Assembly: GCA_949752745.1 (NCBI GenBank)
Contig: OX457031.1
Span: 51,097,103 to 51,161,102, forward strand
Origin: Protula sp. h YS-2021
Lineage: Eukaryota > Annelida > Polychaeta > Sabellida > Serpulidae
DNA: 64,000 nt
Direction of reading: 5' to 3'
Part shown: positions 4,733-53,227 of the stretch, in pieces
How positions within the stretch are numbered: the stretch's first letter is position 1
Layout of the letters: each line of letters begins with the position of its first letter
The notes under the pieces: generated by a model
Databases searched by the model: none
Seen by the model: only the letters and a program-made list of their open reading frames with translations
Told to the model about the DNA's origin: nothing
Translations under genes and position numbers: made by a program

Positions 4733-5276
4733 AACCAAGCCAAAACGCACTCTAGTCTTCAATGCCACAAACAACGAAGCCAAAACGCACTACAGTCCTC
4801 AATGCCGCAAACAACCAAGCCAAAACGCACTACAGTCTTCAATGTCACAAACAACCAAGCCAAAACGCACTCTGGTCCTCAATGTCACAAATAACCAAGC
4901 CAAAACGCCCTCTAGTCTTCAATGCCACAAACAACCAAGCCAAAACACACTCTAGTCTTCAATGTCACAAATAAGCACGCCAAAACGCACTACAGTCCTC
5001 AATACCATGAACAACAAAGCCAAAACACACTCTTGTCCCCCATGTCACAAACAACACGCCAAAATGCACTCTAGTCCTCAATGTCACAAACAACCACGCC
5101 AAAACGCACTCTAGTCTTCAATTGCACAAACAACCATGCCAAAACGCACTACAGTCCTCAATGCCATAAACAACCAAGCCAAAACACACTCTTGTCCCCA
5201 ATGTCACAAACAACCAAGCCAAAACGCCCTCCAGTCTTCAATGCCACAAACAACCAAGCCAAAACACACAATGTCA
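4733..5276. repeat. 40-bp minisatellite, left part (about 14 copies)
   Basis: The unit has the words accaagccaaaacgcact and agtcttcaatgtcacaaac; copies at 4774 and 4814 are 40 bp apart. The array continues at 6231-6425, so the LINE at 5277-6230 interrupted it. Confidence 0.9.
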
Positions 5277-6035
5277 GCCTCTTGGATGAAGTGCAATCGT
5301 CTTAAGCTTAACGCCTCCAAGACAGAAATTCTTGTTATAGGAACACAAAGAAATATAGATCTCGCTAATATATAGACATTACAAGTGGAAAATGAACAAG
5401 TAGCACGCTCGAAGTCAGCAAAAAATCTAGGTGTGACCCTCGATGCGTGTCTCTCGTTAGAACAACACATCCTAGAAGTGGTAAAATCATGCAGATATAA
5501 ATTACGGGAACTGTGGCATATTCGTAAGTATCTATCTCATGATGCAGCCAAAACAATAGTGCACGCCGCAGTCATTTCGAAACTGGATTACTGCAATTGT
5601 CTTTACGTCAATTTACCTACTTTCCTGATAAAGAAGTTGCAGAGCGTGCTAAATGAAGCAGCCCGATTGGTAACTGTAACACCCAGAAATGAGCACATAA
5701 CATCAGCCTTAATCAAACTTCACTGGTTGTCTGTACCAGAACGTATTGAGTACAAAGTTGTCACAATGGTATATAAAGGACTACATGGTCTTGCCCCAGG
5801 ATATATTAGTGAACTCCTAGTCCCTTATGAACCAACCCGACCCCTCTGTTCAGCATCACAGCGTCTTTTAGTTGAACCACGGTTCCGCCTAAAATCAGCA
5901 GGTTATCGAAGTTTTGAGGTTGCAGGGCCGAGACTTTGGAATAAATTACCACAAAATTTGAGAGAAACAGATAATTTTAACACTTTTAAAAAGAATCTCA
6001 AGACCTTTTTATTTAAGAGATCATACTGTGTTTAA
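5277..6035 (+). pseudogene. LINE reverse transcriptase, C-terminal part (CR1/L2 type)
   Basis: The frame begins with WMKCNRLKLNASKTEILVIG, the conserved segment after the catalytic palm of CR1/L2 reverse transcriptases. It continues with KNLGVTLDACLSLEQHI, LDYCNCLYVNLPTFLIKKLQ, AARLVT, IKLHWLSVPERIEYKV and LHGLAPGYISELL, and ends with GPRLWNKLPQNLR before a stop at 6033-6035. All of these are hallmarks of the thumb/C-terminal domain in this clade. The N-terminal endonuclease and the catalytic FADD-type region are missing, and one in-frame TAG lies at 5373-5375. The copy is dead but the frame after the stop is intact for 216 codons, so the insertion is fairly recent. Confidence 0.9.
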
Positions 6036-6230: not shown

Positions 6231-6425
6231 AATGTCACAAACAACACGCCAAAACGCACTCTAGTCCTCAATGTCACAAACAACCAAGCCAAAACGCACT
6301 CTAGTCTTCAATTGCACAAACAACCAAGCCAAAACGCACTACAGTCCTCAATGCCACAAACAACCAAGCCAAAACGCACTCTAGTCCTCAATGTCACAAA
6401 CAACCAAGCCAAAACAAACTACAGT
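6231..6425. repeat. 40-bp minisatellite, right part (about 5 copies)
   Basis: Same unit as 4733-5276, resuming directly after the LINE tail. Confidence 0.9.
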
Positions 6426-18975: not shown

Positions 18976-18979
18976 TTAC

Positions 18980-19100
18980 TGTGTGAAGTTATCGTGGATG
19001 GAGTTGAGCAGATTGACCTCTTTGTCCAGGTACAGCTTCGTATCGTCCAGGGTGTTGTAAAGCGTGTAGAACTGCTTGGTCTCCTTGTGTGTGCTCGCCA
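18980..19100 (-). CDS. CCDC93: CCDC93 exon (sixth and last found; transcript order)
   Basis: A 121-bp exon with acceptor ttacattacag|tggcg and donor cacaca|gtaagc. In frame it encodes [20 protein letters not shown] followed by [19 protein letters not shown]. As I remember the family, this is the best-conserved C-terminal coiled-coil block of CCDC93 ([16 protein letters not shown] in vertebrates). CCDC93 is a long coiled-coil subunit of the CCC complex, part of Commander, which supports recycling of membrane proteins from endosomes. The exon takes two bases into its first codon, matching the single G left by the previous exon, and leaves CA for the next. Its first 46 bases and its acceptor are the source of the 90-bp array at 19111-20848. 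The exons that should follow were not found. Confidence 0.93.
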
Positions 19101-20848
19101 CTGTAATGTAAGAATACCCGCCCAACAGGCTTCATTTTAAGACACTGTAAAGCGTGTAGAACTGCTTCGTCTCCTTGTGTGTGCTCGCCACTGTAATGTA
19201 AGAATACCCGCCCAACACGCTTCATTTTAAGACACTGTAAAGCGTGTAGAACTGCTTCGTCTCCTTGTGTGTGCTCGCCACTGTAATGTAAGAATACCCG
19301 CCCAACAGGCTTCATTTTAAGACACTGTAAAGCGTGTAGAACTGCTTCGTCTCCTTGTGTGTGCTCGCCACTGTAATGTAAGAATACCCGCCCAACAGGC
19401 TTCATTTTAAGACATTGTAAAGCGTGTAGAACTGCTTGGTCTCCTTGTGTGTGCTCGCCACTGTAATGTAAGAATACCCGCCCAACACGCTTCATTTTAA
19501 GACATTGTAAAGCGTGTAGAACTGCTTGGTCTCCTTGTGTGTGCTCGCCACTGTAATGTAAGAATACCCGCCCAACAGGCTTCATTTTAAGACATTGTAA
19601 AGCGTGTAGAACTGCTTGGTCTCCTTGTGTGTGCTCGCCACTGTAATGTAAGAATACCCGCCCAACAGGCTTCATTTTAAGACAATGTAAAGCGTGTAGA
19701 ACTGCTTCGTCTCCTTGTGTGTGCTCGCCACTGTAATGTAAGAATACCCGCCCAACAGGCTTCATTTTAAGACATTGTAAAGCGTGTAGAACTGCTTCGT
19801 CTCCTTGTGTGTGCTCGCCACTGTAATGTAAGAATACCCGCCCAACAGGCTTCATTTTAAGACAATGTAAAGCGTGTAGAACTTCTTGGTCTCCTTGTGT
19901 GTGCTCGCCACTGTAATGTAAGAATACCCGCCCAACACGCTTCATTTTAAGACACTGTAAAGCGTGTAGAACTGCTTCGTCTCCTTGTGTGTGCTCGCCA
20001 CTGTAATGTAAGAATACCCGCCCAACAGGCTTCATTTTAAGACATTGTAAAGCGTGTAGAACTGCTTGGTCTCCTTGTGTGTGCTCGCCACTGTAATGTA
20101 AGAATACCCGCCCAACAGGCTTCATTTTAAGACACTGTAAAGCGTGTAGAACTGCTTGGTCTCCTTGTGTGTGCTCGCCACTGTAATGTAAGAATACCCG
20201 CCCAACACGCTTCATTTTAAGACACTGTAAAGCGTGTAGAACTGCTTCGTCTCCTTGTGTGTGCTCGCCACTGTAATGTAAGAATACCCGCCCAACAGGC
20301 TTCATTTTAAGACATTGTAAAGCGTGTAGAACTGCTTGGTCTCCTTGTGTGTGCTCGCCACTGTAATGTAAGAATACCCGCCCAACAGGCTTCATTTTAA
20401 GACACTGTAAAGCGTGTAGAACTGCTTGGTCTCCTTGTGTGTGCTCGCCACTGTAATGTAAGAATACCCGCCCAACACGCTTCATTTTAAGACACTGTAA
20501 AGCGTGTAGAACTGCTTCGTCTCCTTGTGTGTGCTCGCCACTGTAATGTAAGAATACGCGCCCAACAGGCTTCATTTTAAGACATTGTAAAGCGTGTAGA
20601 ACTGCTTGGTCTCCTTGTGTGTGCTCGCCACTGTAATGTAAGAATACCCGCCCAACAGGCTTCATTTTAAGACACTGTAAAGCGTGTAGAACTGCTTGGT
20701 CTCCTTGTGTGTGCTCGCCACTGTAATGTAAGAATACCCGCCCAACACGCTTCATTTTAAGACACTGTAAAGCGTGTAGAACTGCTTCGTCTCCTTGTGT
20801 GTGCTCGCCACTGTAATGTAAGAATACCCGCCCAACAGGCTTCATTTT
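19101..20848 (-). repeat. 90-bp array of CCDC93 3' splice site plus partial exon (20 acceptor copies)
   Basis: The 90-bp unit holds, on the minus strand, about 44 bases of intron end (through tgggcgggtattcttacatt and acag) and the first 46 bases of exon 18980-19100. The core gtgctcgccactgtaatgta starts at 19091 and then every 90 bp up to 20801, giving 20 copies. The copy at 19081-19110 is the real exon's acceptor; 19 decoys lie upstream in the transcript. In the exon frame each decoy reads [14 protein letters not shown] and then stops at TGA after SVLK. Variable sites (act/att/aat, ggt/cgt, agg/acg) show a trimer order in part of the array. Because 90 is divisible by three, another minus-strand frame is open for 627 codons. 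That frame is out of register with the exon and is not a gene. Confidence 0.95.
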
Positions 20849-21419
20849 TTTTTTTAGGTGTTGCAAAAACAAGTAGCTATCGCGAAGGATATATACAGAT
20901 AACTAAAATATAAAAATACCACTTAAATATATCTGCACCCTCTAATCCTAAAATAGTGTAGGCTAGTATGGGCTCTTACCATGAACGCGCTCTAAAAGGA
21001 GAATCCTCGTCCCGCACTCTGTATAATGGTCATCCCGAGGGACCCGAAGTCACTCCACATCACATCTGCTATTAGCTTTCCGTAAATTTAACACCTGAAC
21101 GCATGTTGGTGAGAAAACCCCTACCCGGACAAGTCCACACACAGAAAAGACAACTATTCCACGAAAAGGAGAGGGTGGGGTTGGAGGGGGGGGGGGGGGG
21201 GGGGGAGGAGAATCTGTTTTACTTCAAATTTGACGCATTTTATCTTATTTCATATTAATGCTTATAACAAGTGATGAGAGTGAACCGTTGTTTAGTGCAG
21301 ACAAGCCTCCCCTTTACGTACTGATATCGCCAGGCCACACATTTCACTCATTGCCGCTTGCACATTGAACGGTACACGGGGGGGCAGTATTGTTGTAAAA
21401 GGACAAAGGACCGGCTGAC
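20849..21419. other. CCDC93 intron
   Basis: AT-rich sequence with a long G-run at 21178-21204. The intron between the fifth and sixth exons found is about 2.3 kb and is mostly the 90-bp array. Confidence 0.7.
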
Positions 21420-21528
21420 CTTGGTTATAGAGCTCGACAAATCTCCGCTGATACTGGCTCAGCTCGGCTCGGGTTGGTACTTCATCTATCCGCCGCTGTA
21501 GGCCTGAAATCTCCCTGTTCTTACGAGC
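21420..21528 (-). CDS. CCDC93: CCDC93 exon (fifth found)
   Basis: A 109-bp exon with acceptor gaatttctag|gctcg and donor accaag|gtcagc. It encodes [20 protein letters not shown] followed by [16 protein letters not shown], leaving one G. From memory of the family, RRNREIA.L.RKIDEVPSRAEL.QYQ.RF.ELY is a signature segment of CCDC93 directly before the THKETKQF block, which is the order found here. The region is a charged amphipathic coiled coil. Phase 0 at the start fits the previous exon's phase 0 end, and the trailing G makes valine with TG of the next exon. Confidence 0.95.
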
Positions 21529-42461: not shown

Positions 42462-42533
42462 CAAAAGCATTCGAATCTTGTGCAGTTTGTCTCTGCTGGC
42501 TTCGTACTGTTTCTCAATCAGGTCTCTTCTCTC
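42462..42533 (-). CDS. CCDC93: CCDC93 exon (fourth found)
   Basis: A 72-bp exon of exactly 24 codons, phase 0 at both ends, with acceptor cgttacag|gagag and donor ttttg|gtaagg. It encodes ERRDLIEKQYEASRDKLHKI then RMLL. This matches the family pattern in which an EKEKLYKIR-like stretch leads straight into RRNREIA, here supplied by the next exon 21 kb away. It is a charged heptad-like coiled coil. Confidence 0.9.
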
Positions 42534-50628: not shown

Positions 50629-50710
50629 CTTGCAATGTGCTTTGAATTGCTGTTCTTGGAGCTTCAGGCTCTCGTTCTTCGCCACCAGGGCTCGTAACGT
50701 GTCCAGCACG
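50629..50710 (-). CDS. CCDC93: CCDC93 exon (second found)
   Basis: An 82-bp exon with acceptor ttttgtttcag|cgtgc and donor tgcaag|gtatcg. It encodes [20 protein letters not shown] then QFKAHCK. From memory, vertebrate CCDC93 has LRALVAMNENLK.QEQEFKAHC at this place, so the match is close. The first base completes a glycine codon begun in exon 53154-53227. The intron to the next exon is only 226 bp. Confidence 0.95.
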
Positions 50711-50737: not shown

Positions 50738-50885
50738 ACCTCTCGTCGGTACACTAACTGAATACTACCTCTCGTCGGTACAGTACCTGAATACTACCTC
50801 TCGTCGGTACAGTACCCTAATACTACCTCTCGTCGGCACAGTACCTGAATACTACCTCTCGTCGGCACACTATCTGAATACCACA
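50738..50885. repeat. 29-bp minisatellite, about 5 copies
   Basis: Unit tacctctcgtcggtacagta plus cctgaatac. It starts about 28 bp from the acceptor of exon 50629-50710, so it occupies the usual branch-point zone of that intron. Irregular gggaacattacaggaggtat repeats follow at 50980-51080. Confidence 0.85.
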
Positions 50886-53153: not shown

Positions 53154-53227
53154 CCTCTGTTTTCCTCTGTTTCTAAGGCTGAAATCTCGGTCATTTCCGC
53201 ATCAAGTTTTTTGCTCTCCTCTTCTGC
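53154..53227 (-). CDS. CCDC93: CCDC93 exon (first found)
   Basis: A 74-bp exon with acceptor acgttttatag|gcaga and donor cagagg|gtgcgt. It encodes AEEESKKLDAEMTEISALET then EENR, leaving GG. The family has a YSEKLDKE...LEKIE coiled-coil stretch about 20 residues before LRALV, the same spacing as here. It starts in phase 0, so its upstream exon must end in phase 0. A candidate lies at 55446-55489. Confidence 0.85.

Follow-up and report, generated by a model that had tools for sequence, protein, structure and literature searches.

The array of twenty 90-bp units within the CCDC93 gene of the annelid Protula sp. h YS-2021 is most likely a mirage, a minisatellite that has caught an exon/intron boundary, with exon definition probably keeping the acceptor nearest to the donor in use. 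It gives the impression of an accident that is tolerated, and its kind already has a name. As in other mirages, the repeated unit spans the boundary, an intact real exon stands at one end of the cluster, and the splice signals are kept in many copies. All positions given without a contig refer to the window, the whole stretch of 64,000 nucleotides that was analysed.

The sequence-only reading of this DNA had described twenty 90-bp copies, each with an intact CCDC93 acceptor and the first 46 exon bases. Tandem Repeats Finder (TRF) and the spacing of the motif agree with this description. TRF reports a 90-bp unit in 19.9 copies with 97% matches at 19056-20848 on the minus strand, on which the motif TTACAG/TGGCG (the slash marks the splice boundary) occurs 20 times at a spacing of exactly 90 bp. 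In each unit the last 44 nt of the intron are joined to the first 46 nt of the exon, and the AG is intact in 20 of the 20 copies. Only copy 20, whose exon part starts at 19100, continues into a full exon, as had also been claimed. This true exon (18980-19100, minus strand, placed by homology with its edges taken from AG/GT and frame) has 121 nt, encodes 41 residues, and is followed by the donor CACA/GTAAGC (GT at 18978-18979, minus strand). Its acceptor AG lies at 19101-19102 (minus strand), identified from the table of units and by inspection of the edge. The other 19 copies carry decoy acceptors, whose first exon bases follow every 90 bp on the minus strand (20810, 20720 and so on to 19190). 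The preceding CCDC93 exon, at 21420-21528 on the minus strand, encodes 36 residues and ends with the donor AAG/GTCAGC. Because only 46 of the 121 exon bases are repeated and the donor is present in copy 20 only, mutually exclusive exons were rejected as a description of the array.

The copies differ little from each other. Among copies 2-19, only two of the 44 intron-derived and three of the 46 exon-derived columns are variable, one variant of the exon part (ACC or ACG) is synonymous, and copy 20 corresponds to the consensus except for its last base. The identity between copies peaks at a lag of three units (0.983 compared to 0.974 at lag 1; permutation p 0.0017), which corresponds to a higher-order pattern of 270 bp that is clearest in copies 1-11. 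The 97% matches together with these three-unit blocks are the pattern of concerted evolution within the array. At 10 of the 19 unit junctions there is a second AG, CTTTACAG/TGTC. The CTTAA about 36 nt before the AG in copies 2-20 could, we presume, serve as a branch point. The exon-side end of the array reads GGTGTTGTAAA (19051-19061, plus strand) and the intron-side end GGTGTTGCAAA (20857-20867, plus strand), which agree in 10 of 11 bases; to judge from the sequence, this 11-base direct repeat at the breakpoints might have seeded the first duplication. The minus strand also contains a stop-to-stop open reading frame of 637 residues with a 30-residue repeat at 18989-20902, in a frame different from that of CCDC93. 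A DNA search of the genome with the whole locus returned the locus itself and two short matches, both outside the array.

The host gene is well supported. The peptide of the two exons flanking the array matches one distinct sequence in the PDB, named coiled-coil domain-containing protein 93 (E 1.4e-32), and the Pfam family CCDC93_CC (E 3.3e-42), and the joined frame agrees with the homologues. Searching with CCDC93 proteins of other animals by tblastn, we found 13 exons at E <0.05 and one weaker exon, which follow one another in order along the minus strand between C8:51216115 and about C8:51086524, a distance of about 130 kb. Besides the two exons next to the array, three of these lie on the minus strand of the window, at 42462-42533 (E about 1e-5), at 50629-50710 (E about 1e-6), and at 53154-53227, the last having the lowest similarity (best E 0.027, from a smaller search) and fitting by order, AG/GT, and frame. 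The joined translation has 485 residues compared to about 600-635 in the homologues, which leaves some short pieces unplaced along with the start codon and the final codons. Pfam scans of about 10 kb on each side revealed no further exons, the neighbouring exons being farther off or too short. Between the exons found, the shortest intron has 252 nt and the longest 61 kb; the array lies in an intron of 2,319 nt, and the next one has 27,404 nt. A search of the whole genome for the CCDC93 family yielded beyond this locus only two matches, one on C10 with E 1.3e-4 and the other on C9 with E 0.27, and neither reaches the curated cut-off. Given the ordered exons over about 130 kb and only these two matches elsewhere, the gene is a nearly whole, single-copy CCDC93, and a pseudogene or stray fragment was rejected. 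Its similarity is about equal (57-60%) to molluscs, Owenia, nemerteans, and lancelets, and among the CCDC93 protein matches listed none is from this species. Another array of the gene, with a 29-bp unit at 50738-50881, stops 28 nt short of the acceptor at 50710 and thus covers the likely branch-point region.

Splice matrices for CCDC93 were built from 13 sites each, the acceptor matrix from the 13 other acceptors of the gene. The unit acceptor scores 6.2, within the range of the other acceptors (-1.5 to 13.8), and the additional AG at the junctions scores 6.5. By the 13-site donor matrix, the two best GTs within the unit score 2.95 and 2.76, compared to 5.45 for the true donor and 2.94 to 9.9 for the 13 donors of the gene. 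These two GTs are therefore similar to the weakest donor of the gene, which itself scores just 2.94. All 19 decoys precede the true acceptor and lead to an early TGA, as the sequence-only reading had predicted. Its count of about 14 codons before the stop was close; exactly, whichever of the 19 decoys is entered, 15 codons are read correctly, with one split by the intron, and four foreign codons follow before the TGA. In the copies printed this TGA is at least 152 nt ahead of the donor. Because the CCDC93 frame is stopped in each of the 19 decoy units, a coding (exonic) VNTR was rejected.

The origin and fate of the array can be pictured as follows. An initial tandem duplication, for which the 11-base direct repeat may have been the seed, would have copied 44 nt of intron together with 46 nt of exon, and unequal exchange or slippage could then have expanded the unit to 20 copies, partly as three-unit blocks. 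Where introns are long, as in this gene, the exon would be recognised as a unit, so that the acceptor nearest to the real donor, that of copy 20, would be chosen. The remaining 19 acceptors would be removed with the intron, some leakage aside, and leakage into them would run into the stop codon. We infer this route of duplication, the use of copy 20, and the near-neutrality of the array, and copy 20 is expected to dominate with leakage possible. According to the available text of Carranza et al. (PMC9225289), large flanking introns favour the sites closest across the exon. For human acceptors, section 9 of the same paper describes the preference for upstream sites as significantly reduced under exon definition, not as abolished.

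The array is not the only duplicated exon edge in this genome. CCDC93 itself contains a second mirage, on the donor side of another exon, with four copies of 57 bp at C8:51213724-51213950 (L013, outside the window). The GT is present in four of the four copies, and copy 2 reads CCGTAG/GTAATA. A weaker donor duplication is a 19-nt repeat across a donor at C8:51088601 and C8:51088500 (L004, also outside the window), the copy lying 101 bp downstream. Its score at the donor C8:51088593 is 20 (p 0.036, computed one base off the true position), and it was counted as a duplicated edge despite this score because the repeat crosses the boundary. In total, 3 of 28 CCDC93 edges are duplicated, one of them weakly; the other two score above the null maximum.

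Myosin genes were surveyed in the same way. There are at least 87 myosin matches (the best candidates were scored), and 72 of them in 60 stretches were examined; four matches on contig C74, the top row on C1, and the ten weakest rows were left out. Contig C74 (66.9 kb) contains the same myosin exons with the same scores as C11:7.267-7.278 Mb, is identical to it over the 341 bases compared, and is probably a duplicated contig. Taking the HMM edges as exon edges, 143 of 144 edges had enough flanking sequence. The null for edge duplication consisted of 2,885 permuted pairs with a 99.5% level of 24 and a maximum of 31. Nine edges score above this level and six above the maximum. Seven of the 143 edges were finally judged to be duplicated into the adjoining intron, the last step being one of judgement. 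Five of the seven, L063, L084, L033, L058, and L042, are above the null maximum, and the other two, L038 and L050, score 29, a value reached by 2 of the 2,885 permuted pairs. On the donor side the seven include L063 (128 bp, at least 2.9 copies, 99%), L084 (110 bp in 2.7 copies, 82%), and L038 (41 bp, decayed). On the acceptor side they comprise L050 (three copies, AG retained in both decoys), L033 (two copies, AG retained), which could instead be a decayed exon copy, L058 (two to three copies), and L042 (40 bp, the repeated units being without AG). The score of L058 does not test the true edge, because the HMM edge falls inside the repeat and the true edge was placed by eye. Two candidates were dropped, L072 because an intronic array had been read as exon and L088 because it is a 13-nt match.

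Tandem repeats with a period of at least 10 comprise 16% of a 295-kb region. Around 172 edges, arrays cover 4.9% of the positions within 5 nt of the edge, and deeper in the intron, 50-200 nt away, they cover about 10-11%, a descriptive comparison indicating about half the coverage. This fits minisatellites arising generally in this genome and being purged only weakly where they touch splice sites, and the CCDC93 array is not special among them. The seven myosin edges, as judged, and the three CCDC93 edges, one of them weak, suggest that at least one annelid genome commonly contains mirages, a name used so far for lancelets. Within the 64-kb window itself, tandem repeats with a period of at least 6 make up 24%. 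Two arrays of one 40-bp unit (4733-5269 and 6231-6415) flank an open reading frame of 219 residues at 5376-6035, which presumably resembles the end of a retrotransposon reverse transcriptase. In the same assembly, a COX1 frame of 609 codons under code 5 is found on contig C218 (L028:1357-3183), with a long C-terminal extension past the part that aligns to other animals. Among the best 120 of 8,000 candidates, its best named matches are two Serpulidae, Ficopomatus enigmaticus with 62% and 702 bits and Hydroides elegans with 58% and 677 bits, the top score belongs to an unnamed protein (63%, 738 bits), and the next matches drop to 620 bits. COX1 thus points to a serpulid annelid, a placement to which the evenly similar CCDC93 adds nothing, and a lancelet genome was rejected on this ground.

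The sequence-only reading had considered that the array might regulate the level of CCDC93, while also naming neutrality as an option. Part of the splicing would then enter copies 1-19, the TGA would lead to nonsense-mediated decay, and the copy number would set the amount of CCDC93. The stop behind all 19 decoys and the mid-range score of the unit acceptor would suit such a function, as would the second AG at ten junctions, and in the human data upstream acceptors retain some preference (PMC9225289, available text). However, the decoys and the true site have locally identical sequences, the GTs within the unit score below the true donor, although about as high as the weakest donor of the gene, and the exon-derived parts of the copies vary as little as the intron-derived ones, so that there is no sign of constraint on the decoy copies. 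Moreover, similar arrays are found at further exon edges, both in CCDC93 and in myosin genes, several of them with decayed signals, and the published mirages are reported not to disturb splicing in the available texts of PMC3087553 and PMC3902484. Regulation by decoys is therefore unsupported, and we regard it as improbable. Scarcely more credit is given to a combined reading, in which minisatellites spanning splice sites are a genome-wide serpulid class on several percent of exon edges and the CCDC93 array is in addition a length-variable rheostat. Each unit would here add a competing acceptor leading to decay, and differences in copy number between individuals would tune CCDC93; this conjunction seems unlikely.

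Less likely still, splicing might include single units as additional mini-exons, or the array might be an intron being gained, which would result in repeat isoforms. Every unit contains weak GT sites, the 637-residue reading frame runs through the array without a stop, and Ebner et al. (PMC3087553) propose intron gain from mirages. Against this, the CCDC93 frame hits a TGA at every decoy, the 46-nt exon part alone is not a multiple of three, the GTs within the units are weak, and the human homologue aligns across this site without an insertion, which makes this reading very unlikely. Equally small is the chance that the copy number is an assembly error. Although the assembly does contain one duplicated contig elsewhere (C74 compared to C11), the copies differ in an ordered way, as seen from the identity peak at lag 3, and lie inside a 67-Mb contig. 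Based on these ordered variants and this position, the array is most likely real DNA. A tolerated mirage remains our preferred explanation. Its twenty acceptors are nearly alike over 44 intron and 46 exon bases and differ mainly in their distance to the donor. The array is thus a ready natural assay of exon definition versus first-come acceptor choice among identical sites. The recurrence of mirages on other exon edges also permits asking how often the duplication of splice sites by minisatellites is tolerated, and whether intron gain is fed by it.

Among the nearest systems, we know of no copied exon edge in the VNTR of ABCA7. Like the CCDC93 array, this minisatellite in an intron has been linked to the splicing of its host gene; unlike the boundary-spanning array it is titled as intronic (PMC5954066). 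Repeats at human exon-intron boundaries, the variable internal tandem repeats of segmental duplications, are similar in that boundary minisatellites are able to change gene structure (PMC2812944). They were chosen for altered gene structures with transcript support, and no 20-copy acceptor array is among them in the available part of that paper. Closest are the lancelet genes. Ebner et al. 2010 (PMC3087553) found that intron-exon boundaries of amphioxus globin genes are duplicated in the manner of minisatellites, in one case on the acceptor side, and called this "mirages" after Canestro et al. 2002; by their account, Adh3 data and globin RT-PCR suggest that regular splicing is undisturbed. As in the CCDC93 array, the repeat of the globin gene BflGb6 joins the 3' end of an intron to the 5' part of the exon behind it, the AG survives in several copies, and the copies evolve in concert. 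The two haplotypes of BflGb6 carry 6 and 3 units, each of 150-160 bp, in contrast to 20 units of 90 bp, and its splicing has been seen by RT-PCR in a lancelet, whereas the annelid array is known from DNA alone. In lancelet Adh, TnC, and PGBD5 minisatellites also duplicate splice sites, for Adh and TnC stated to be without aberrant mRNA in the available text of PMC3902484. These are other genes in another phylum, and the PGBD5 repeats are of 60 and 108 bp in few copies. In the literature covered, which included few subscription papers, we found no report under the name mirage outside the cephalochordates. The sequence-only reading was right about the anatomy of the array, which is real, and overrated its novelty, since the lancelet genes with published mirages already include those for globin, Adh, TnC, and PGBD5. 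The CCDC93 array is a large acceptor-side mirage in another phylum, the class itself being already known, and new here are the donor-side mirage of 4 x 57 bp and the weaker donor duplication in CCDC93 together with the survey of the myosin edges.
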